From Aquirufa beregesia (GTDB lineage: Bacteria; Bacteroidota; Bacteroidia; Cytophagales; Spirosomataceae), in contig NZ_SEWW01000005.1 in the NCBI RefSeq assembly GCF_011090385.1, forward strand, positions 150,275-214,274: DNA of 64,000 nucleotides. Direction: 5' to 3'. Shown one piece after another: positions 1 to 16,993 of this stretch. Below the pieces are notes generated by a model. The model searched no databases. It saw only the letters and a program-made list of their open reading frames with translations, and was not told where the DNA came from. Each line of letters starts with the position of its first letter. Position 1 is the stretch's first letter. Made by a program: the position numbers and the translations under genes.

Positions 1-462
1 AAAATATTCCTCAGTTTGGTAATAGAACAAGGAGGTGTACCCCATGGTATCACGCGTAATAAACAGTTTTTTTGTGTCGTAATGGTAAGCGACTAAACTC
101 CAATCACCTTTTAAATGGAATTGAACCTGATCACCATATTTTAAATATGCCTGTAGCATGATAAATGAATCAGACATTTCATCCTGCTTACTCAAGGATA
201 AATCGGGAATCAATTCGTCTCTATTATCTATTCTGCCTATGGATACAAACAGCATGTTGCTTTCACTCAAAAACAGGGGAAGTATATCATACACGTCTTC
301 AACTGTCCCATACGTTAGCACTTTAGCGAAAACAGCTTCTTTATTTTGGGTAATTTTTATGTTTTCATTGGGAAATTTTCTCAATGGTTCAAGCATTTTT
401 TCCATGCATGAATCATCCACATTTTTTTCATCCAAATAAATTAATCCCAATAATAGACTCAT
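1..462 (-). CDS. Lasso peptide cyclase (asparagine synthetase-like, C protein), partial
   Basis: The 154 visible codons form the N-terminal glutamine-amidotransferase-like half of an asparagine synthetase B family protein; the rest lies beyond the left edge. It begins MSLLLGLIYLDE and contains RDTMGYTSLFYY, matching the RDxxGxxxLYY segment of AsnB-type proteins. The catalytic Cys2 of true amidotransferases is absent (Ser2), as is usual for lasso cyclases, which adenylate the Asp/Glu side chain of the core and close the macrolactam with the N-terminal amine. It lies 68 bp downstream of a PqqD-like B1 gene on the same strand. A B2 peptidase, a kinase and precursor genes are nearby, and that context is what decides the call. 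The synthetase domain with its ATP-binding motif cannot be checked here, so an unrelated AsnB paralogue is still possible. Confidence 0.75.
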   Translation of the reverse strand, partial: MSLLLGLIYLDEKNVDDSCMEKMLEPLRKFPNENIKITQNKEAVFAKVLTYGTVEDVYDILPLFLSESNMLFVSIGRIDNRDELIPDLSLSKQDEMSDSFIMLQAYLKYGDQVQFHLKGDWSLVAYHYDTKKLFITRDTMGYTSLFYYQTEEYF

Positions 463-530
463 ATCAATAATAATAACGTGATAAAAATATTTTATCTAAA
501 GGTTTTACCCTATGAATAAATGGGTGGAGA

Positions 531-827
531 TTAAAGCTGGATTACCAATAAGTCATGTTGCTCTAGGGTGTTTAAGAATTCAAATACATGAGTGTGACAC
601 TCATGCGCTTCTACCTGATATTTGGCAAGTAACATTTGTATTAAATCATGGACAGAGATAGGCTTTTCTATTAAATTCCAAATACTACTCCCAATCCTAT
701 TTAAATTAAGATAATTGCCATTTTTTAAATCCATGATAACAATTTCATCATGTAATACATTGCTAACGATGTGGGAACTATTTCTAGAAATAACACTTTC
801 TAGAGTAAGATAAATAGGTGATTGCAT
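531..827 (-). CDS. PqqD-like RiPP recognition protein (lasso B1)
   Basis: This 98-residue protein has the PqqD/RRE pattern. It has a strand-rich first half (DEIVIMDLKNGNYLNLNRIGSSIW, residues about 27-50) and then helices (DLIQMLLAKYQV and a final HVFEFLNTLEQHDLLVI). In lasso systems B1 binds the leader peptide at a YxxPxL-type motif and presents it to the B2 protease and the cyclase. The precursors downstream carry WxxPxL at the matching place. It is the first gene of a minus-strand pair with the cyclase. It reads away from the kinase-B2-precursor half, so the locus is split into two divergent transcription units about 1.2 kb apart. Confidence 0.8.
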   Translation of the reverse strand: MQSPIYLTLESVISRNSSHIVSNVLHDEIVIMDLKNGNYLNLNRIGSSIWNLIEKPISVHDLIQMLLAKYQVEAHECHTHVFEFLNTLEQHDLLVIQL

Positions 828-944
828 AATAGAAATAAAATGGTATTATTTTAAGCTTATCTCCATGATATATTACCATTGAGGTAGGCTTAAAATACAG
901 ATACAAGGATATTACACTAAAATAAAGGTATAAATTTAAAAACT

Positions 945-1045
945 TTGTCTTGTCCTGAAATAGGTTGAATTGTGGTTTATTAATAAATATTGTAATTAAG
1001 CTGCATCAAAACCTCCTTGGTATTTCTTTTTTTTGATAAAAAAAG
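945..1045. repeat. Repeat shared with 35640-35745, ending in a T/A hairpin
   Basis: The segment runs from the sequence around AGGTTGAATTGTGG through GCATCAAAACCTCCTTGG to a TTTCTTTTTTTT/AAAAAAAGAAA hairpin at about 1023-1047. It recurs in reverse complement at about 35640-35745. With the transposase remnant at 1522-1713 it reproduces the whole 35397-35745 element, except that about 435 bp is inserted at the hairpin. Confidence 0.75.
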
Positions 1046-1068
1046 AAACAAAAAAAACGTAGAAGTAA

Positions 1069-1223
1069 GGTTAATCCTAAGACGAATTCTGCTTTGCAGA
1101 ACCGATTGTCTCTCCGCTTACGGCTTTAATCTTTGACGTTTACGCACATGGCCTATGCGCAAGGTCAAATATCCGCCTGCCGCTTCGCTCAAGCTTTGAT
1201 CCAATCTTTCGTTGGGATTAACC
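1069..1223 (+). repeat. 155-bp element with GGTTAATCC terminal inverted repeats, copy A
   Basis: It begins GGTTAATCC and ends GGATTAACC, a 9-bp terminal inverted repeat. The inside is conserved with copies at 23468-23622 (opposite orientation, same length) and 24042-24193. No ORF is conserved. It is flanked by T/A-rich hairpins. It is either a MITE-like non-autonomous element or a structured intergenic repeat; I see no transposase with matching ends in the window. Confidence 0.7.
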
Positions 1224-1289
1224 TTTTGAGCTATTAGGTATTATTGTTTAGAATGTAGAATACCACATCCATTTATAATTTACAATTCT

Positions 1290-1432
1290 CGTCTAGCTAC
1301 AGCGAAAGGTGATGAACGCAGCGATAGACGAGGTTTTGACCTCAGCATAGGCGATGTACTTCGGCGTCAAAAATATAGGCGATAGCAGAGTGAATCACGG
1401 TTTCGCAAGGCGAAATTCGTCTTTGCTGGACG
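1290..1432 (-). repeat. Diverged member of the same 150-bp repeat family, copy D
   Basis: Starts CGTCTAGC and ends GCTGGACG, an inverted repeat with one mismatch. Read on the plus strand it aligns with copy B: GCATAGGC-ATGT, GTCAAA, then CGGTTT-CGCA and GAAATTCGTCTT in the same order. It therefore lies head-to-head with copy A, 66 bp away. Confidence 0.5.
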
Positions 1433-1521
1433 ACAAAAAAAAGAAGTTTTTTGTTTCTTTTTTTTAAAAAAAGAAATGCCTTGATGAGTGAAATTCCTTA
1501 AAATGTATGGTTAAAAAAAGA

Positions 1522-1713
1522 TTGTCTTGTCCTAAAATAGGTTGAATTAGGGTTTATTAATAAACACTGTAAATGTGATCCATTGGCTGTATAAATCCCT
1601 AGCGAAAGTTCGTCTAAAACTTGTTGTCTGAAACTCTCACTGTAACGATAAATCCTCTTAATTTTAAGCATAAGTATTCAGTTTATAAAGTCTACTTTTT
1701 TCAGGACGGTACA
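1522..1713 (-). pseudogene. IS3-type OrfA transposase remnant with IS end
   Basis: On the minus strand an ATG at 1671 opens MLKIKRIYRYSESFRQQV and continues with a DELSLGIYTANG segment, which is the start of IS3/IS2-type OrfA helix-turn-helix proteins. Similarity is then lost into unrelated repeat sequence (LLINPNSTYFRTRQ). The left end 5'-TGTACCGTCCTGAAAA lies at 1713, 42 bp upstream of the ATG. The same remnant occurs at 35397-35590 on the plus strand. Only about 30 codons of transposase survive and there is no OrfB, so the element is dead. Confidence 0.65.
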
Positions 1714-2042
1714 CTTTTTTCAAGTCCTCAGGCAATTTCAGCAGAGATTATGATGGACAATCCAAGCAAGAATATAGATATAAGGGCCAAATCAATGGTA
1801 TTGATGAAAGTTGAATAGTGGATTGAAAATCATACATCAAGCATTTTACCATATCTGACCAATCGTATATTTTCTTTAGGGAATTAACCTGTTTTAGGAC
1901 TTTTTGAAACGATATTACGCGTAATTTTAATGGAATTATCTTTTTCTTTGTTTTTTATTGCAGGCTTGGGTACAATTGAAAATGGATAGTTTCAAGGAAA
2001 TCAAAGATGCATTGGTTACCATTAGGAATAAGTATATAATAT

Positions 2043-2960
2043 ATGTCTTACCAATATTCATCATTTGGCTTATTGATACAATCTGATTTAGAGTTTCCTG
2101 AATTTGTAGATTGTCATTTCGAATACCCTGATTTGATTATTTCAATCGGAAAAGTCCCTTCCAAACTAAAGTTTAGCCCCTTGATAGAGGAGCCTCATGA
2201 ATGCATCAATGATCGAGAATATTATTTGGAAGTAGAAAACGTGGCCAAGTACTATGCTTTTGATGGGAGAGAGCTTATTGTAGAATATAACTCAGAGGCT
2301 GATAAACGCACGATCAGGATTTATTTGTTGGCTACCGTCATGGCCGCTATTTTACATCAGAGAAACAGTATTCCGCTGCATGCCTCTTCTATTAAATGGA
2401 AGGATGGACTAGTGGTCATTTCAGGAGAATCGGGAGCGGGGAAATCAACGACTGTTTCGGGATTACTTAAATCAGGCTACTCCATATTTAGTGATGATGT
2501 GCTAGTTTTAAAGCAAGATGAAGATCAGGAAGTCGCTGCCTTAGCTTCTTATCCTCTGATCAAATTATGGGACGATGCCATTCAAAAATTACAAAGTGAA
2601 TTATTTGAAAGTCGAGATTTCGTAGTCAAACCAGGCTACGAAAAATTCGGATTCTTTTTTCATGAGCATTTTGATGTAAATCCTTACTACATCAAATTAA
2701 TTTTAGTTTTGAAAATCAAAGAAGTTAATCACATTGAATACAAGGAATTGCAGGGAGGAGAAGCGTTTAAAGAATTTATGGCTCAATCATATAGGCCTAA
2801 TTTATTACACAGCAATGCATTGAGAGCATTAAACTATGCTATGTTGGTATCTATTTTAAAAAATGCCAAATTGGTAGTTGTTCATAGACCCCCAGTGTGC
2901 AACCCTGAAGAATTATTATCCCATATTGAAACCATCATTCAGCATGAGTATCCCGTATAA
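2043..2960 (+). CDS. HprK-like lasso peptide kinase
   Basis: The 305-residue protein has an N-terminal alpha/beta region and an HPr kinase C-terminal-type P-loop domain. Visible motifs are PLHASSIKW (111-119), Walker A GESGAGKST (128-136) and FSDDVLVL (about 149-156). The C-terminal half is all helical and ends NAKLVVVHRP. In Firmicutes HprK phosphorylates HPr. In the paeninodin lasso cluster a related kinase phosphorylates the C-terminal Ser of the precursor. Here the gene overlaps the B2 gene by 17 bp, and seven of the eight cores contain the motif Phe-Ser, six of them at the very C-terminus, so the same tailoring role is the best inference. HPr kinase function is unlikely because there is no PTS context. 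The start ATG at 2043 is chosen because it gives the complete N-terminal domain. Confidence 0.75.
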   Translation: MSYQYSSFGLLIQSDLEFPEFVDCHFEYPDLIISIGKVPSKLKFSPLIEEPHECINDREYYLEVENVAKYYAFDGRELIVEYNSEADKRTIRIYLLATVMAAILHQRNSIPLHASSIKWKDGLVVISGESGAGKSTTVSGLLKSGYSIFSDDVLVLKQDEDQEVAALASYPLIKLWDDAIQKLQSELFESRDFVVKPGYEKFGFFFHEHFDVNPYYIKLILVLKIKEVNHIEYKELQGGEAFKEFMAQSYRPNLLHSNALRALNYAMLVSILKNAKLVVVHRPPVCNPEELLSHIETIIQHEYPV

Positions 2961-3363
2961 ATGGAAGGAGATTGGACTATTTATAGAAGCTTGGATATAT
3001 ATAGCTTTAGCTAGAATGAGTATTCTCGTTCTTTCATTTGAATACTTAATGAAACTGATTGGAAAACCCATTTCTTCTCAGAATTGGGAAGAGTCCAATA
3101 AACTACTTACCACATACATTCCCATTAACCAGGCGATTGAACGAGCATCCCGATACGCTTTTTGGAGGACTAAGTGTTTTGAGCAAGCCCTGACGGCCAA
3201 ATGGATGTTGGAACGGAGAGGCCAAACTACCTATTTGTATTTTGGTGTTAGAAAAGAGCAAAGTGGGAGTCTTACTGCTCATGCCTGGTTGGTATGCGAT
3301 GGAGAAATAGTTACGGGTGGGAATGTAGCTTCAGAATTTCAAGTAATTAGTTGTTTTTATTGA
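2944..3363 (+). CDS. Lasso peptide B2 protein (transglutaminase-like leader peptidase)
   Basis: With the ATG at 2944, overlapping the kinase stop by 17 bp, this is a 139-residue protein. Residues 10-35 are hydrophobic. The C-terminal part has the papain/transglutaminase-like core of McjB-type B2 proteins: Cys78 in KCFEQALTAKWMLERRG, then LYFGVRK, His113 in TAHAWLVCDG, and an acidic residue soon after (Asp119). B2 cuts the leader from the precursor just after the residue following the conserved Thr(-2). The eight precursor genes start 57 bp downstream, so B2, the kinase and the first precursors are probably co-transcribed. The length is normal for split B2 proteins. Confidence 0.85.
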   Translation: MSIPYKWKEIGLFIEAWIYIALARMSILVLSFEYLMKLIGKPISSQNWEESNKLLTTYIPINQAIERASRYAFWRTKCFEQALTAKWMLERRGQTTYLYFGVRKEQSGSLTAHAWLVCDGEIVTGGNVASEFQVISCFY

Positions 3364-3372
3364 TTGATACTC

Positions 3373-3393
3373 AAATAGTTTGAACTATTTTTT
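3373..3393 (+). terminator. Hairpin between B2 and the first precursor
   Basis: AAATAGTT-TG-AACTATTT followed by TTT makes a perfect 8-bp stem with a short T run, 10 bp after the B2 stop. It may be a weak terminator or attenuator that lowers read-through into the precursors or protects mRNA ends. Confidence 0.45.
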
Positions 3394-3420
3394 AGATTGC
3401 ATCTTTAAAACCTATCAAAT

Positions 3421-3567
3421 ATGAAAGAAAACAAAGAAATTACCTCATCTGAGAAAGGTAAAGAGACTTGGGCTAAGCCAGAGTTGGAGACAGTATCGGT
3501 TAAAGAAATCACTTTAGCTAGTTTCATCAATGTTGGTGTGGATAATTTTTTTTTAGTTAAATTCTAA
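3421..3567 (+). CDS. Lasso precursor peptide A1 (divergent core)
   Basis: 48 residues starting MKENKEITSSEKGKE. The leader has WAKPEL, matching the YxxPxL leader motif with Trp for Tyr, and KEITL with Thr at -2. The predicted core ASFINVGVDNFFLVKF has 16 residues and places Asp at 9, so the ring would have nine residues. It is the only precursor that does not contain Phe-Ser after the ring; it ends in Lys-Phe. It may therefore escape the kinase. Start ATG at 3421. Confidence 0.75.
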   Translation: MKENKEITSSEKGKETWAKPELETVSVKEITLASFINVGVDNFFLVKF

Positions 3568-3583
3568 GAAACGAATTAATGAA

Positions 3584-3739
3584 TTGACCTCATCTGAGGA
3601 AGGTAAAGAGACTTGGACTAAACCTGAATTAGAAATTGTATCGTTGAAAGAGAATACCTTGGCGGCAGCTGCAGTTGGAGCAGATTTGGGTTTGTTTAGC
3701 TTAGTATTTCAAAGATCAGATACAATTAATCTATTTTGA
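3584..3739 (+). pseudogene. Lasso precursor A2, start lost and stop shifted
   Basis: The frame encodes the normal leader (GKETWTKPELEIVSLKENTL) and a core AAAAVGADLGLFS with Asp8, but two features are abnormal. There is no in-frame ATG; where the others have ATG AAA this has AAG AAA, and the best alternative is TTG at 3584. One extra T before the usual TAG makes the frame read through into the repeated 3' region, adding LVFQRSDTINLF after the Ser. It is either a decaying copy or a longer-tailed variant that starts at TTG. Confidence 0.6.
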
Positions 3740-3824
3740 TATCATTTTATCTGTATTTTGTTCGAATGTGTAATGAAAGCATAAAATTAAATGAGCGTCA
3801 TAGCTAACGTTAAAATAACAAATC

Positions 3825-3959
3825 ATGAAAAAAATTGAATTAACTCCTCAGGTTGAAGCAAAAGAAACGTGGACTAAACCTGAATTAGAAATGGTATCAG
3901 TGAAAGAAAATACTTTAGCGGGAGCTGGGGTAGGGGTTGATATTGGCATTTTTAGCTAG
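3825..3959 (+). CDS. Lasso precursor peptide A3
   Basis: 44 residues starting MKKIELTPQVEAKE. Leader motif WTKPEL and Thr(-2) in ENTL. Predicted core AGAGVGVDIGIFS: Ala1, Asp8 and C-terminal Ser13, giving an 8-residue ring and a 5-residue tail. The core is identical to that of A5. Confidence 0.85.
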   Translation: MKKIELTPQVEAKETWTKPELEMVSVKENTLAGAGVGVDIGIFS

Positions 3960-4169
3960 TATTTCCAGTTAATAGGAATTAATTTCAATCAACTTGATCT
4001 GGGTATTACAAATTCATTTATGAATTTGTTGATTCAAGTATCAAAGGTATTTCAAAGATCAGATACAATTAATCTATTTTGATATCATTTTATCTGTATT
4101 TCTTTTGAATGTGTAATGAAATAGCATAAAATTAAATGAGCGTCATAGCTAATGTTAAAATAACAAATC

Positions 4170-4304
4170 ATGAAAAAAAATGAATTAACTCCTCAGGTTG
4201 AAGCAAAAGAAACGTGGACTAAACCTGAATTAGAAATTGTATCGTTGAAAGAGAATACCTTAGCCGGTGGGCCGGGTCTTTTCGATTTAGCTGTTTTTAG
4301 TTAG
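4170..4304 (+). CDS. Lasso precursor peptide A4
   Basis: 44 residues starting MKKNELTPQVEAKE, with WTKPEL and ENTL as in A3. Predicted core AGGPGLFDLAVFS has Pro4, Asp8 and C-terminal Ser13. The core is identical to A6 and differs from the A3 type at most ring positions, so the array makes at least two distinct products. Confidence 0.85.
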   Translation: MKKNELTPQVEAKETWTKPELEIVSLKENTLAGGPGLFDLAVFS

Positions 4305-4523
4305 TCTTACTTGATAGGAAGGATAGATTTCAATCTTTTTTATCCAGGCATTGCAAATTTATTTTAGTAGTATTTCACAGATCAGATACCATCTATTTTG
4401 ATATAATTTTATCTGTTCTTATTTTCGAATGCGAAATGAAATGCTTAATTCCAAGCTATTGGTATGTGATAAAATAGCATAACGTTAAATGAGTTTCATT
4501 GCTAAATTTTAATATATAAAATC

Positions 4524-4661
4524 ATGAAAGAAAAAAAGGAATTGGCTCTTCAGGTTGAAGCAAAAGAAACGTGGACTAAACCTGAATTAGAAATGGTATC
4601 TGTGAAAGAAAATACTTTAGCGGGAGCTGGGGTAGGGGTTGATATTGGCATTTTTAGCTAG
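4524..4661 (+). CDS. Lasso precursor peptide A5
   Basis: 45 residues starting MKEKKELALQVEAKE. The core AGAGVGVDIGIFS equals A3. The first ten codons look like A7 and A8 while the rest matches A3, so the edge of a tandem duplication lies within the leader near the CAG GTT GAA codons. Confidence 0.85.
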   Translation: MKEKKELALQVEAKETWTKPELEMVSVKENTLAGAGVGVDIGIFS

Positions 4662-4871
4662 TATTTCCAGTTAATAGGAATTAATTTCAATCAACTTGAT
4701 CTGGGTATTACAAATTCATTTATGAATTTGTTGATTCAAGTATCAAAGGTATTTCAAAGATTAGATACAATTAATCTATTTTGATATCATTTTATCTGTA
4801 TTTCTTTTGAATGTGTAATGAAATAGCATAAAATTAAATGAGCGTCATAGCTAATGTTAAAATAACAAATC

Positions 4872-5006
4872 ATGAAAAAAATTGAATTAACTCCTCAGGG
4901 GGAAGCAAAAGAAACGTGGACTAAACCTGAATTAGAAACTGTATCAGTGAAAGAAAACACCTTAGCCGGTGGGCCGGGTCTTTTCGATTTAGCTGTTTTT
5001 AGTTAG
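4872..5006 (+). CDS. Lasso precursor peptide A6
   Basis: 44 residues starting MKKIELTPQGEAKE. Core AGGPGLFDLAVFS, identical to A4, with leader changes only (Gly10, and LETVSV for LEIVSL). Confidence 0.85.
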   Translation: MKKIELTPQGEAKETWTKPELETVSVKENTLAGGPGLFDLAVFS

Positions 5007-5225
5007 TCTTACTTGATAGGAAGGATAGATTTTAATCTTTTTTATCCAGGCATTGCAAATTTATTTTAGTAGTATTTCACAGATCAGATACCATCTATTT
5101 TGATATAATTTTATCTGTTCTTATTTTCGAATGCGAAATGAAATGCTTAATTCCAAGCTATTGGTATGTGATAAAATAGCATAACGTTAAATGAGTTTCA
5201 TTGCTAAATTTTAATATATAAAATC

Positions 5226-5363
5226 ATGAAAGAAAAAAAGGAATTGGCTATTCAGGAGGAGATTAAAGAAACATGGACTAAACCTGAATTAGAAATGGTG
5301 TCGATTAAAGAGAATACCTTGGCTTTTGCGGGATTTGGAGCAGATTCGGGTTTTTTTAGTTAG
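5226..5363 (+). CDS. Lasso precursor peptide A7
   Basis: 45 residues starting MKEKKELAIQEEIKE. Core AFAGFGADSGFFS is unique in the array, with Phe2, Phe5 and Asp8; Phe11 and Phe12 could act as bulky plug residues. Ends in Ser. Confidence 0.85.
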   Translation: MKEKKELAIQEEIKETWTKPELEMVSIKENTLAFAGFGADSGFFS

Positions 5364-5516
5364 TATTTCACAGATCAGATACCATCTATTTTGGTATCAT
5401 TTTATCTGTTCTTATTTTCGAATGCGAAATGAAATGCTTAATTCCAAGCTATTGGTATGTAATAAAATAGCATAACGTTAAATGAGTTTCATTGCTAAAT
5501 TTTAATATATAAAATC

Positions 5517-5654
5517 ATGAAAGAAAAAAAGGAATTGGCTATTCAGGAGGAGATTAAAGAAACATGGACTAAACCTGAATTAGAAACGGTGTCTGTGAAA
5601 GATAATACCTTAGCTGGTGCTGTAGGAGTAACTGATGCTGGAATTTTTAGCTAG
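5517..5654 (+). CDS. Lasso precursor peptide A8
   Basis: 45 residues with a leader nearly identical to A7 (KDNTL instead of KENTL). Core AGAVGVTDAGIFS is again unique, with Thr7 before Asp8 and C-terminal Ser. It is the last gene of the array; the next gene, a xylanase, is convergent. Confidence 0.85.
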   Translation: MKEKKELAIQEEIKETWTKPELETVSVKDNTLAGAVGVTDAGIFS

Positions 5655-10883: not shown

Positions 10884-11369
10884 ATGAAAAATAATTCATT
10901 ACTCTTAACGGCTACATTGGTGACATTTTTTCTAACAAGTTGTATAAAATTTACTTCAAATAAGGAAAGAAAACTGGACGCCATTTTCCCCAAAGGATCT
11001 TTAGCTCCTGCAGAAAACTTTACAGGAAATGCTTGGACAAAATCTTTATTACCAATGGATAGTACATATAGTACCATAGTCGGTAATGTATATTTTGAAC
11101 CTGGAGCAAGAAGTAATTGGCATACACATCCCGCTGGTCAAATTTTAATAATTACAGATGGAATAGGGTATCATCAAATAAAAGGCCAACTACGCGCAAC
11201 TATTAAAAAAGGTGATATAATCACATGTCCACCCAATGTACTACATTGGCATGGAGCAAGCCAAAATGTTGGTATGATGCAAATGTATATATTACCAAAA
11301 ACAGAAAAAGGACTAGTAAAATGGTTGCAAAAAGTAACCGATCAGGAATATAGCGGCGAAATCAAATAA
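10884..11369 (+). CDS. Cupin-domain lipoprotein
   Basis: 161 residues. Residues 1-20 form a lipoprotein signal ending FFLTSC. The rest is a single cupin: motif 1 PGARSNWHTHPAGQILIITDGIG (His in HTH, Gln in place of the usual metal Glu) and motif 2 GDIITCPPNVLHWHGA. This pattern is that of small quercetin-dioxygenase-like or hydroxynitrile-lyase-like cupins that bind one metal. Substrate unknown. It sits alone just outside the tRNA-Val island, between imperfect inverted repeats. Confidence 0.7.
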   Translation: MKNNSLLLTATLVTFFLTSCIKFTSNKERKLDAIFPKGSLAPAENFTGNAWTKSLLPMDSTYSTIVGNVYFEPGARSNWHTHPAGQILIITDGIGYHQIKGQLRATIKKGDIITCPPNVLHWHGASQNVGMMQMYILPKTEKGLVKWLQKVTDQEYSGEIK

Positions 11370-11932: not shown

Positions 11933-14900
11933 ATGAATTGGGAAGAATTGTTGTCAAAAGTCTCTATTGAGTCTATTTTAGAATTGCGAGTTAAATCGAA
12001 AGATAATCAAACCAAAAATGTATTCTTTGATTTTTATGGATTTGAAGCTATTCTTCCATTAGATGAAATTGCCAATGAATATGGCTTGAAACATTCCTTA
12101 TTTCATACTATTAAGGTTGGAGAATTAATAAATTTAGTTTTGATAAACATTGATCGTGCTAATCAACGATTCATTTTTAGTACAAGGGTATTCAGAACTG
12201 CACTTAACGATATTTTATCTTTTACTAAATGTAAATTGATTGTTGAGAAAAATAAAGAGGATCATCTGGGGATTCCCCCAAAATTCATAATTCAACATAG
12301 GAATCAATTAGATCGCTTACGAGGTGATTTATCTTCGAATGAACTTACATTTCTATATGAATTAATACAGAATGCCGTTGATCATTCTAATCGAAATTTC
12401 GACTATAGTGTTAGTATAACTTTTGAAGTATTTAACAATTATTTGTTGGTTAAGCACAATGGGGCTTTGTTTACTGAAAATAACTTCGAATCAATTACTG
12501 GAATTTTATACGGAGAACAACAACAAGAAAGTGATAAAGGAAGGATTGGTTACAAGGGTATTGGTTTTAAATCTGTTTTCAGATTTACCGAGAATGCTTA
12601 TATACGATCTGGAAATTTCAGTTTTAGATTTTCTAAATCTGAATCTGGTAAAGAAAAGCCTTGGGAAGTATTGCCTATTTTTCAAATTGAAAAGGAAATG
12701 GTTGATAAAATTCCACAATTTGATTTTTTCAACTCACCAGTTGCATTTGCTTTTGAATTCAACAATGAAAAGAATAAAAACGATGTTATTAAATATTTAA
12801 ATCTCTTAAGTCAAAATCCATATTTATTAATTTTTCTAGAGAATTTAAGTCAAATAAAAATTAAGGCTCCTAGTGTTAGTTACACAGAAAATGGATTAAA
12901 TGTATTTTTATCTCCTTTAGACATCGTTTTTAGAAAAGATTTGAATGGTATTGGGAAATTTAAATCTATTGAATTATTGGTAAATAATACATTACATAGT
13001 GAATGGTTAACCTACACAAAAAACGATATTGTTATTCAAGATGAAGATGTAATTAATGAATTATTGGATGAAACGGAAACCGCTGTTCCTACAAAAATGA
13101 GAACTTTTCGATCTCCTCAAATTACAATTGCTCTTCCCAAAAGTACCATAAGTGAAGATGTAATTAATTTGTTCGCTTACCTACCGTTATCTAATACTAA
13201 ATTCAAATTACCATTTTTAGTCAATGCTGATTTCATTCCAGATTTAAATAGAACTGACATAATTCATAATTTAAAATATAATAGAGAAGTTCTAAGGTTG
13301 TTAGCTGTTACAATACAAGAATTTGCTCAAGAATTGGCATTTGATAATGATTTAGAAAACCTAAATAGACTTTTGCCAGATTTTAAATTAGAATACACAA
13401 ATGCAGCTAAAATTATTGTCGAAAGTCTATTCAAATTGCTGCCAAATACCTCTTTAGTTATAGGTCAAGATAGTATTAAGTTATCCAATATTATTATTGA
13501 CAGGACAGGAATCCTTTCAAATTTTGGAAAGTCTGATTTTGAATATTTGATTGCTAATGATAATTATCCTGTTAATCATTTGGGTGAATATGTTAGTATA
13601 GAGAAATTAATAGAGGGTTTAAATTCTGATGCAATTTTTAATTTTTCAAAATTAAAAAAACTAGTAGGTCTTAATCATTTTGAAAATTGGTTGAAAAATG
13701 ATGTAAACAACCTAAACTTCATAGAATACCTTAATAGATTCGATCAACTTGATTCCTTTAAGGAGGAAGCAATTTTTTTATCAGAAGATTTTAATCTGTA
13801 CCAAGGGAATGAATTGTATTTTGATTTAGATGTAGATTCAAATTCTTTAAAGTGGTTAGATTTTGATAAAGTATTGAATAGTACTATATCAAATGAGCTG
13901 ACAGATATATTGCTTCCTTTGAAAAAATATGTTCCCATTGATTTTATAAATGAAGTAATTTGTGGTGAAAAAAAGAAATATATCATTCAAGGTTTATTAA
14001 GTGGCATAATTCAGTTTGAAGAATTTTATTCATTTTTATCAAAGTATTCAAATCACCCTTCATTTCCGTCTCAGAATGTCAAGGATTTTCCGCTAAAAAC
14101 AAATCAAGGAGTTTTAAATAATTGGATTAACCCAATTTATTTTAATTCTAATTCATTAAAGATATTACTATCTAGTAAGTCACTTCCTCCAGGTTCGTTC
14201 TTTCTATTAGAAGAAAATTGGAATAATTCTAACTCATATATATTGGGGAAATTATTAGGAACTCAAGAGTTTTCTGAAATTGAGCCTTTCAATTTCACTC
14301 AATCAGTTATTGTTTCTAATTACGAGAGGATAATTGAATTTTATTTAACAGAACCCTTGCCGACCGTTACTACTAGTGCTGCTTTCTGGTATTTTATACT
14401 AGCTTCTTTTGAAAATTTGTCATCAATTCAAATTGATTCTATTAAGTCAGAAATAAAACAAATACCCATATTTTCGAAGGCAAAAAAATATGACTCAATT
14501 AGAAACCTCTATTTATCATCGGAATATACAGATAATGAGTCTTTAGAGAGATTGATATTACAATTTCCAAATTCAAATATTTCATTTGTTAGTGGAGATT
14601 ATCTTAAATTCCCAGCTATTGATAAAATTAAAATTAAGAAGTTGTTCAAACAGCTAGATGTTAAGGATGATTCAGCTGACTTTTTGAAACACACTCTAAT
14701 TCCTAATTTGAACTTGTTAGACGATGATATGTGGTTGCCACTAACTAGATTAATTTATGAGAATAGAGATAATGATGAAATTATTACAGATTTACTTGAT
14801 AATTCTGACTTCAAACTAAAGACAAAGGAGGGAAATTATAAGCAAATTAAAGATTGTTTTATCGGTACCCCTTATATTGTTGATTTGTCAATTCAAAATT

Positions 14901-16993
14901 ATTTAGACATAATAAAGATTGAAAATCAAGTTTCTGAGGATTATACTATTAATTATTTCGACTCTTGGAGGAGGTTGTTTAATGAAAAGCTTAAAATACC
15001 TCAATTGAACATTGAATCAGAAATTATTACATTAAAATTAAAGAGTGTTGTAGAGAATTTAGATTTTTGGAAGGATTCGTCAAATTCAGTTCTTTTGTTT
15101 AAAGAGCTATTTAGGGTTTACAAGACTGGTAACTTGTCTCTACAAGGAAGTAACCTGAACTACATTAGAAATATACCTCTTCTAACCAAGGGTGGGATGT
15201 CCGATTGTGCACTTCCAAATTCACTCCATTTTTCATCTATTTATAAACCTGTCTTCGACTTTGAGTCATTGTTTGGTTTAGAAAGTGGAATTTCATTTTT
15301 ATCAGATGAATATCAAATTGAAGGAGAGGAAGCTCAATTATTGTTTTTTGAGCAAATAGGCGTTTCTCAATCGTTTGAAAATCAAAGGCTTGATTTTTTT
15401 TTAAAGCAAATACCAACTTTAGATGGTCAGTTTAAGCCAGCAAATCAATTATTTAAATTTGAATTTGTTAAAATTGTTGGGCCATCAAATGTTTCAAAAG
15501 TTGATTTTTCGAAAATCATATATGAAGGAAAGACATTAGAAGAATTTCTTGGTTTCAAGACTCAGCTCAACGTATTGTCAATTTTAAATTATATTTCAGA
15601 GAAAAGACCTCCAAGAAAAGAATTCAAAGAGTTGATTAATCAATTTAATCAGGTTTACAATCCAAATAATTATAATGACAAATCACACTTAAATAATTTT
15701 ATTCGATCAGGTAGTTTACTTTCTACTGCTAAAACTTACAATTTAGTGATGGACCTTTATACAATTGATGAATCAATTGATAGCGGAATTAAGGAAAGTG
15801 AATATATTTTAGATACACTTTTTAATACCCAAGACCGTGAGAGTAATGCAAATAAACTGAAGTATATAAATCGTTTCAATATTGAAAGATTGAAACTAGA
15901 GGACTTTAATCCACAATTTGAAGATCAAAAAGATGATTTCGATTTTACTCGCAGAGTAAATGAAAGATTGGTTTTTTTAGCCTTTGAAATCGACAATGAA
16001 AAATATTTAGAAATAGAGGAGGAGTTTAAAGAAAAGTTTCAAGAATGGAAAATAAGGAAATGCAGAAAAATTTCTTTAAAATACCCTGCAACGGATAGTA
16101 AAATTATAAAAGATGACAATCGGAATTTTATTATCCAAGACACTAAAACAATTTTTTATATCGGAGAATGGTCTGAACTTAGAAATTATATTCTTGTTGA
16201 ATGGTTGCAAAAACAGATTTTGGATGTTAAGAAGCAATTACAATTCTTGCAAGATATGTTACTAAACTCTCCAATTGATATAATTGCTGATTTTGAAAGT
16301 AAAGGTAAAATTGTTCCAGTGGAGCTTAAAAAAAGGTTTATTTTTAATAGGCAAATTCTGCAGCCGATTCAGACTAATGAAGAAATCCCAGTTGAGGAAT
16401 TAAACAATCAAGTAGCTGGTGAAATTTCTCAAATCGCTGAAGATTCTTCTAAAAAGGAAATCAAAGAAATTGTTGATATTATTCCAGATATAACTGCTGA
16501 AGATGAAGAGTTTATACTCTCTATAATTAATTTTAATTATAAGAAAGACGGCCAGATTGATGCTAATACCACAGCCAAAATTAAAACTCTAATGGAAATT
16601 AGGGCCAATTATTTATTGGAAGATATATCAGATGAAGGCAGATTTTTAAAAGCAGGCGATGATGAAGTATTGGTAAGATCTGCACAAAATGGGCTATTAT
16701 ATTTTGATTTATATAGTTGGGATCGATTAAGTGAGCCTAATGTACAATTAGCATTATATACAAATGGGGTTGTAAAGTTCTATAATAGTCAAGATGATTT
16801 AATTCTATATACTAAACCTCTCAATAAATTTGGTGTATTAAGGATGCCAGAAGATTACGTTTTAGAGGATTATAATTTGGATAAGAAAACATATGACAAA
16901 GGGAAATGGCATTTTGTATTAATAGTAAATGAAAATACTACTGCTGCAAAGATATATAATGATGTTATGAACCTTGAAGACTATAATTTCTAA
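11933..16993 (+). CDS. Giant S1-like/sacsin-type HATPase protein, candidate defence component
   Basis: 1686 residues. Residues about 10-86 fit an S1-like OB fold (VFFDFYGFEAILPLDEI, VGELINLVLINIDRANQRFIFSTR), which would bind RNA. Residues about 120-320 are a GHKL/HATPase domain of the sacsin type. It has an N box ELIQNAVDHS (143-152), HNGALF (175-180) in place of the usual DxGxG, and RIGYKGIGFKSVF (204-216). The remaining 1300 residues are mainly helical and unrecognised, with no obvious DUF3883 nuclease motif. Similar large HATPases occur in prokaryotic defence loci. The stop is followed after 2 bp by a helicase-PIN gene, so the two products almost certainly act together. Codon use is much more AT-rich than in nearby core genes. 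The S1 call is a pattern match only. Confidence 0.65.
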   Translation: MNWEELLSKVSIESILELRVKSKDNQTKNVFFDFYGFEAILPLDEIANEYGLKHSLFHTIKVGELINLVLINIDRANQRFIFSTRVFRTALNDILSFTKCKLIVEKNKEDHLGIPPKFIIQHRNQLDRLRGDLSSNELTFLYELIQNAVDHSNRNFDYSVSITFEVFNNYLLVKHNGALFTENNFESITGILYGEQQQESDKGRIGYKGIGFKSVFRFTENAYIRSGNFSFRFSKSESGKEKPWEVLPIFQIEKEMVDKIPQFDFFNSPVAFAFEFNNEKNKNDVIKYLNLLSQNPYLLIFLENLSQIKIKAPSVSYTENGLNVFLSPLDIVFRKDLNGIGKFKSIELLVNNTLHSEWLTYTKNDIVIQDEDVINELLDETETAVPTKMRTFRSPQITIALPKSTISEDVINLFAYLPLSNTKFKLPFLVNADFIPDLNRTDIIHNLKYNREVLRLLAVTIQEFAQELAFDNDLENLNRLLPDFKLEYTNAAKIIVESLFKLLPNTSLVIGQDSIKLSNIIIDRTGILSNFGKSDFEYLIANDNYPVNHLGEYVSIEKLIEGLNSDAIFNFSKLKKLVGLNHFENWLKNDVNNLNFIEYLNRFDQLDSFKEEAIFLSEDFNLYQGNELYFDLDVDSNSLKWLDFDKVLNSTISNELTDILLPLKKYVPIDFINEVICGEKKKYIIQGLLSGIIQFEEFYSFLSKYSNHPSFPSQNVKDFPLKTNQGVLNNWINPIYFNSNSLKILLSSKSLPPGSFFLLEENWNNSNSYILGKLLGTQEFSEIEPFNFTQSVIVSNYERIIEFYLTEPLPTVTTSAAFWYFILASFENLSSIQIDSIKSEIKQIPIFSKAKKYDSIRNLYLSSEYTDNESLERLILQFPNSNISFVSGDYLKFPAIDKIKIKKLFKQLDVKDDSADFLKHTLIPNLNLLDDDMWLPLTRLIYENRDNDEIITDLLDNSDFKLKTKEGNYKQIKDCFIGTPYIVDLSIQNYLDIIKIENQVSEDYTINYFDSWRRLFNEKLKIPQLNIESEIITLKLKSVVENLDFWKDSSNSVLLFKELFRVYKTGNLSLQGSNLNYIRNIPLLTKGGMSDCALPNSLHFSSIYKPVFDFESLFGLESGISFLSDEYQIEGEEAQLLFFEQIGVSQSFENQRLDFFLKQIPTLDGQFKPANQLFKFEFVKIVGPSNVSKVDFSKIIYEGKTLEEFLGFKTQLNVLSILNYISEKRPPRKEFKELINQFNQVYNPNNYNDKSHLNNFIRSGSLLSTAKTYNLVMDLYTIDESIDSGIKESEYILDTLFNTQDRESNANKLKYINRFNIERLKLEDFNPQFEDQKDDFDFTRRVNERLVFLAFEIDNEKYLEIEEEFKEKFQEWKIRKCRKISLKYPATDSKIIKDDNRNFIIQDTKTIFYIGEWSELRNYILVEWLQKQILDVKKQLQFLQDMLLNSPIDIIADFESKGKIVPVELKKRFIFNRQILQPIQTNEEIPVEELNNQVAGEISQIAEDSSKKEIKEIVDIIPDITAEDEEFILSIINFNYKKDGQIDANTTAKIKTLMEIRANYLLEDISDEGRFLKAGDDEVLVRSAQNGLLYFDLYSWDRLSEPNVQLALYTNGVVKFYNSQDDLILYTKPLNKFGVLRMPEDYVLEDYNLDKKTYDKGKWHFVLIVNENTTAAKIYNDVMNLEDYNF

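Follow-up and report, generated by a model that had tools for sequence, protein, structure and literature searches.

A paeninodin-like lasso peptide locus with a tandem precursor array in the Bacteroidota genus Aquirufa

What is encoded by eight small open reading frames (ORFs) that stand in tandem near the left end of a 64,000-nucleotide stretch of the Aquirufa beregesia genome? The stretch, called the window throughout, corresponds to C30:150275-214274 of a 3.23-Mb draft genome and lies on a contig of 268 kb. A first-pass annotation had read the ORFs as lasso peptide precursors. All eight are present on the plus strand between 3421 and 5654, and our analysis supports this reading: the locus is very probably a complete lasso-peptide gene cluster, of which window positions 1-5654 form the right-hand part. 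Judged by its genes, the reading as a paeninodin/pseudomycoidin-like lasso system in Bacteroidota with a tandem precursor array is well supported; such a system would be of a known kind, with host and precursor number both unusual.

According to the ORFs read from the sequence, the gene order is N-C-B1 on the minus strand and K-B2-A1 to A8 on the plus strand. A GH10 gene follows the precursor array on the other strand. The members of the cluster are:

L010:7269-8480, minus strand: N, nucleotidyltransferase (PF14907)
1-462, minus strand: C, predicted lasso macrolactam cyclase, first 154 codons; the full gene (631 residues) is L010:8567-10462, genome C30:148841-150736
531-827, minus strand: B1, PqqD-like leader-binding protein (RRE), 98 residues (NF033536)
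2043-2960, plus strand: K, predicted HPr-kinase-like lasso peptide kinase, 305 residues, with sub-cut-off family matches and HKDD residues
2944-3363, plus strand: B2, transglutaminase-like leader peptidase (NF033537, PF13471), start chosen from the sequence
3421-3567, plus strand: A1 precursor, core ASFINVGVDNFFLVKF, Asp9, ending in VKF with no terminal Ser
3584-3739, plus strand: A2, precursor-like ORF and probably a decayed copy, with TTG as its sole start and without the usual stop
3825-3959, plus strand: A3 precursor, core AGAGVGVDIGIFS
4170-4304, plus strand: A4 precursor, core AGGPGLFDLAVFS
4524-4661, plus strand: A5 precursor, core identical to A3
4872-5006, plus strand: A6 precursor, core identical to A4
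5226-5363, plus strand: A7 precursor, core AFAGFGADSGFFS
5517-5654, plus strand: A8 precursor, core AGAVGVTDAGIFS

The gene content and the conserved motifs can be observed directly. As the first-pass annotation had claimed, a WxxPxL leader motif, Thr at position -2 and Ala1 are found in all eight precursors, together with Asp8 in A2-A8 and Asp9 in A1. All eight thereby satisfy the general lasso precursor rule, in which a [Y/W]xxPx[L..] leader goes with Thr(-2), a small first core residue and Asp or Glu at 7-9. The Trp of the motif had been taken for a replacement of Tyr; it is present, and it is no departure, as paeninodin-like lasso leaders almost always carry WxxP (PMC13381572). A 21-nt leader block, TGGACTAAACCTGAATTAGAA, occurs seven times in the window with at most three mismatches, once in each of A2-A8, and not at all in 100 dinucleotide shuffles. 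When a precursor profile was built from six of the eight window precursors and five from two relatives, it matched eight places in the whole genome, all within the window array. That the ORFs are small and match a curated precursor model only below its cut-off could suggest chance or artefact repeats instead of genes. We give this reading practically no weight: it is refuted by the absence of chance matches in the shuffles, by a conserved protein pattern with silent changes, and by a second species in which ORFs of this kind stand next to lasso enzymes at the corresponding position.

A2 has a TTG, 16 bases past the stop codon of A1, as its sole in-frame start and no in-frame ATG, and its frame overruns the usual stop after LFS by 12 residues. 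Because only a TTG start is left and the usual stop is lost, A2 is probably a decayed copy. The earlier count of eight precursors with six cores is therefore reduced to seven intact-looking precursors with five distinct cores (A3 = A5, A4 = A6).

The biosynthetic enzymes agree with the precursors. The synthetase domain that the first-pass annotation had required of the gene to the left of the window is there: C is cut only by the window edge, and its ORF is intact in the genome and contains a GATase_7 and an Asn_synthase domain. The lasso cyclase model gives C 282 bits and the asparagine synthase model 148 bits, whereas the genome's ordinary AsnB (contig C11), serving as control, shows the reverse (195 versus 407 bits); for this reason C is best read as a lasso cyclase. 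AsnB uses its N-terminal Cys2 as glutaminase residue. The control accordingly begins with MCGI, while C begins with MSLL and lacks the N-terminal Cys. B1 and B2 have the profile support on which the annotation had made its reading depend, as both exceed curated cut-offs: B1 with 86.3 bits against NF033536 (cut-off 80) and B2 with 90.6 bits against NF033537 (cut-off 33), the latter also matching PF13471 with 83.2 bits. The best sequence match of B1 in the PDB is the PbaB1-leader complex (9x90, E 5.9e-15), and TbiB1 (5v1u) is matched with E 1.7e-9; both are lasso RREs solved with leaders. B2 matched no solved structure by sequence. Its start is most likely the ATG at 2944, inside the end of K.

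While the earlier lasso reading stands as far as the cluster is concerned, it had not followed up what the kinase and the terminal Ser (6/8 precursors, A3-A8) imply, and N lay outside its view. HPr-like lasso kinases share a His-Lys-Asp-Asp motif (PMC9266682), and in K the residues His113, Lys134, Asp151 and Asp152 are invariant across all four kinases aligned. Such kinases are reported to phosphorylate the C-terminal Ser of the linear precursor, and for pseudomycoidin the attachment of one or two hexoses to the phosphorylated Ser is reported to require PsmN (PMC9266682, PMC8498205). N matches NTP_transf_5 (PF14907, 140 bits) and is the nucleotidyltransferase gene looked for in a pseudomycoidin-type (phosphoglycosylated) lasso cluster; it may transfer hexose. 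Since K, N and a C-terminal Ser in six of eight precursors occur together, we predict that the products are phosphorylated, possibly hexosylated lassos like paeninodin and pseudomycoidin.

The paeninodin/pseudomycoidin clusters of Bacillota (A, C, B1, B2, K, with or without N) have the WxxPxL leader, the terminal Ser, the HPr-like kinase with HKDD residues and the nucleotidyltransferase in common with the window locus (PMC8498205, PMC9266682, PMC13381572). Thr(-2) and the eight-residue ring are shared as well, but are general lasso features. The window locus differs from the paeninodin type in its Bacteroidota host, its eight precursors and its divergent two-strand layout, and further differences weigh against our assignment. 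C stays below the curated lasso cut-off of 525 bits, and the family matches of K are sub-cut-off only (Hpr_kinase_C, 24.6 versus 33.3 bits; TIGR04352, 28.7 versus 200). All six precursors tested on NCBIfam (A1, A2, A3, A4, A7 and A8) match the paeninodin precursor model NF033524 with E-values from 1.2e-5 to 0.024, yet the best of them, at 25.0 bits, remains under the cut-off of 27. A1 and A2 have no C-terminal Ser, and the window locus showed no ABC exporter (D); it is our guess that the ABC-type transporter of a second locus, described below, serves here too. Paeninodin RREs have Gly where those of LPP clusters and many others have Asn (PMC13381572). In the alignment to 9x90, B1 has Asn at the inferred position of PbaB1 Gly42 and His at that of Gln79; the Gly42 position was placed by an offset of 18, which also sets Gln79 on a Gln. 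We therefore describe the locus as paeninodin-like in leader, tail and tailoring genes, not in the Gly/Asn residue of the RRE, and file it as paeninodin-like instead of as a family member because the NF033524 cut-off is not reached.

The low score of C also bears on a further explanation, namely that its products are linear peptides carrying phosphate and sugar, like those proposed for the LPP family, whose clusters have tailoring enzymes and an RRE in common with the paeninodin type (PMC13381572). We consider this very unlikely. LPP clusters are described as having no macrolactam cyclase (PMC13381572), whereas the window locus has an intact one, in addition to the B2 peptidase and to Ala1, Asp8 or Asp9 and Thr(-2) in every precursor.

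Returning to the lasso reading, we infer a pathway whose chemical steps, step order, expression and biological role are all to be taken as a proposal. B1 would hold the WxxPxL leader, and the linear precursors A3-A8 would receive a phosphate from K on their C-terminal Ser. B2 would then cleave after Thr-Leu, and C would activate Asp8 (Asp9 in A1) and link it, around the tail, to the Ala1 amino group. N may attach hexose to the phosphate. In this way one enzyme set could turn seven intact-looking precursors into about five related peptides. The array itself would have grown by tandem duplication, with recombination in the leader setting cores behind different upstream DNA.

How did the copies in the array diverge? 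Between A3 and A8, leaders differ at few amino acid-changing sites (pN 0.04-0.06; ratio to the silent-site value, pN/pS, 0.13-0.17; in the leader block 0.044 and 0.13), and cores at many more (pN 0.30-0.34, pN/pS 0.48). Moreover, in pairwise blocks A3 and A5 are 100% identical in the core and the 60 nt downstream and 40% in the 60 nt upstream, and A5 and A7 are 100% identical upstream and 56% in the core. At this locus leaders are thus conserved, cores are variable, and the copies are mosaics in which the same core stands behind different upstream DNA. The simplest reading of these mosaics is that cores are probably moved by exchange events that break within the leader. Other observations pull away from diversification. 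Silent sites, too, are more divergent in the cores (pS 0.62-0.69) than in the leaders (0.33), and because of this, selection for core diversity is not proven. The identical cores (A3 = A5, A4 = A6) and the decayed A2 fit neutral duplication equally well. It is accordingly possible, though we think it rather doubtful, that the array is mainly a matter of gene dosage or neutral tandem duplication, with one or two peptides that matter and the rest as decaying by-products; that A. nivalisilvae has three copies only, and that leaders at the second locus are no more conserved than cores, points in the same direction. This explanation has to contend with the leader pN/pS of 0.13-0.17 among A2-A8 (A1 excluded), with the retention of Ala1, Asp8 and the terminal Ser in A3-A8, and with the second locus, where three species have larger arrays whose cores vary.

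The intergenic DNA of the array carries a repeated element:

3732, 4075, 4394, 4777, 5096 and 5387 (span 3732-5414), plus strand: 28-nt AT-rich element, one copy upstream of each of A3-A8
892-919, minus strand: further copy upstream of B1-C, 23 of 28 positions matching

The copies at A3-A8 match at 24-28 of 28 positions, while the best matches in 10 mononucleotide shuffles of 6 kb reach 18-21. In the A. nivalisilvae locus the best match is 20/28, within the shuffle range, and the element is not conserved there. It is promoter-like by position only and may be a putative promoter. A different, non-coding repeat with inverted ends occupies window positions 900-1640 between B1 and K, and related copies occur genome-wide (at least 124 match rows, with 40 of 98 candidates scored). 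The gap between B1 and K measures 1215 bp in the window versus 294 bp in A. nivalisilvae; given this shorter gap, the repeat looks like an insertion.

How widespread is the system? The precursor profile matched two of 38 genomes of the genus (eight places in the window genome, three in A. nivalisilvae, G012). In the order it matched three of the 390 genomes sampled, the last of them (G102) with a single weak match. The A. nivalisilvae cluster has the gene order of the window locus, N, C and B1, then K, B2 and three precursors, all three with a terminal Ser; a gene that is GH10-like by sequence follows. A more distant genus (G105) has a cyclase of 47% identity and two precursors. Among the matches listed in a scan of named genomes there were at least three loci, one of them close (Aquirufa nivalisilvae). 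Across the phylum, the paeninodin precursor model found one of 395 sampled genomes, the window's own, with all matches sub-cut-off; as the model recovered five of the eight window precursors, its reach is limited.

A scan for WxxP small ORFs covered 82 B2-like loci of the family (L010, L011 and 80 fetched ones), with about 46 B2 places of the family outside it and Y- and F-type leaders uncounted. As a precursor count it was rejected, since many single matches in large genera were spurious (strings like '..FIPW.LPGM..'); elsewhere, spurious rows made up 2/14 in L011 and 1/4 in L073. Of three B2-like locus layouts viewed, an obvious cyclase and precursors were found in L055 only. In L042, from a large genus, B2-like, kinase-like and nucleotidyltransferase-like ORFs adjoin, with no obvious WxxP precursor to the eye. 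This and other B2-positive loci of large genera may represent a different peptide system.

The first-pass annotation had also presented eight precursors as exceptional. The array is indeed unusual, but a locus elsewhere in the genome has 12 precursor-like ORFs:

G000:C10:812000-831000: L011, second lasso locus of the same genome

Like its counterparts in another Aquirufa genome (G004) and in A. nivalisilvae, L011 resembles the window locus in WxxP leaders, C, B1, B2, kinase and tandem precursors. Its C scores 250 bits as lasso cyclase versus 154 as asparagine synthase; B1 reaches 44 bits, under the cut-off of 80, and B2 43.4 bits (cut-off 33). The L011 kinase is 27% identical to window K in the alignment, with a family match of 14.9 bits only, and second-locus kinases as a group show 27-28% identity to it. 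Differences from the window locus are the number of ORFs (12 to about 15), the fit of Ile/Leu at -2, many Tyr tails, and the presence of an APS kinase, a sulfotransferase, a SET protein and an ABC-type exporter. In L011 the APS kinase scores 188.5 bits (cut-off 138.7) and the sulfotransferase 93.7 bits (PF00685); the locus also encodes the SET protein and, by sequence, the ABC-type transporter. Of the 12 WxxP precursor-like ORFs, two are without an in-frame ATG. The counterparts, found at the same chromosomal place by their neighbours, have about 15 ORFs (one truncated) in G004 and 14 in A. nivalisilvae; in both, ORFs like APS kinase and sulfotransferase are also recognisable, by sequence only. 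A profile made from 11 second-locus precursors matched three of 38 genomes of the genus, with 13 matches in the window genome, 19 in G004 and 14 in A. nivalisilvae, counts that include fragments and orphans; in the order it matched four of 390 sampled genomes, the fourth weakly. NCBIfam gave no family match for the two second-locus precursors tested.

A leader/core pattern caught 11/12 second-locus ORFs in the window genome, 14/15 in G004 and 12/14 in A. nivalisilvae. With the core placed so that Asp falls mostly at 8-10, position -2 is Ile or Leu in 36 rows out of 37 and Met in the remaining row; since no residues other than I, L, M and F were permitted at this position by the pattern, Ile/Leu is a fit and not an independent test. 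Under this placing two rows have Asp at 11. The tail contains Tyr in all seven upstream L011 ORFs and in all 13 G004 rows with a 15-residue leader block, and the five downstream L011 ORFs end in Ser. In A. nivalisilvae, however, only four of 12 rows have a Tyr tail and the other eight have Ser or Thr, which speaks against a strict rule of Tyr sulfation. At the second locus leaders and cores are about equally conserved (pN/pS 0.51-0.70 in leaders, 0.53-0.69 in cores), so that the leader/core contrast of the window locus does not extend to it.

The bsf cluster of Bradymonas sediminis offers another comparison, having K, N and discrete B1 and B2 as at the window locus (PMC10368454). Ile(-2) was first validated there, and in this residue bsf resembles the second Aquirufa locus, while the window locus keeps Thr(-2). 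It differs by a single named precursor gene (bsfA), Gly1, phosphorylation of Ser3, a YxxPxL leader and an exporter gene (PMC10368454). A putative sulfotransferase gene has been seen in some Firmicutes lasso clusters, according to a review (PMC8498205).

Some ORFs share a core of their own. The L011 ORFs at 11206 and 11452 and two orphans, L156 (G000:C52:56337-56793) and L157 (G004:C26:106070-106169), show a similar core (LNPLxFL...) that recurs in several copies in two genomes and is unlike the variable cores elsewhere in the array; the first ring residue would be Leu or Pro, according to where the leader is cleaved. Both orphans are precursor-like ORFs with no cyclase in the stretch shown. 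By eye, a short ORF close to L157 resembles the C terminus of the second-locus B2.

Taking both loci together, we tentatively propose that Aquirufa maintains a two-locus lasso library with arrays of eight to about 15 precursors. At the window locus, leader recombination would swap cores whose Ser tails are phosphorylated and hexosylated; at the second, the APS kinase and sulfotransferase would yield sulfated, mostly Tyr-tailed lassos from leaders with Ile/Leu(-2). To our knowledge no sulfated lasso peptide has been known earlier, and the second-locus products would be the first. The literature search returned no paper joining Aquirufa with lasso peptides, and the titles and abstract openings it covered, with most subscription literature outside the search, named no sulfated lasso peptide and no lasso cluster with eight or more precursors. 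On precursor number, passages of PMC7533575, PMC10352776 and PMC13352647 offered nothing.

Apart from the lasso genes, the window encodes a 1686-residue protein (11933-16993, plus strand). Its match to the Sacsin domain is weak (30.8 bits against a cut-off of 32.8), and in PADLOC it matches TmtA with up to 324 bits, which makes it a candidate anti-phage defence protein.

What, then, does the locus mean for this family of peptides? Paeninodins have been called restricted to Bacillota (PMC13381572), a limit set by a 2026 paper; a paeninodin-like system with WxxP leader, kinase, nucleotidyltransferase and terminal Ser in Bacteroidota lies beyond it. The array is a natural collection of cores, all of which should be acceptable to one cyclase, and is thus useful for probing lasso cyclase tolerance; its mosaic copies open core swapping via a conserved leader to testing. 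Of the two arrays, the one equipped for sulfation is the more novel lead, and it allows a direct test for sulfated lasso peptides.

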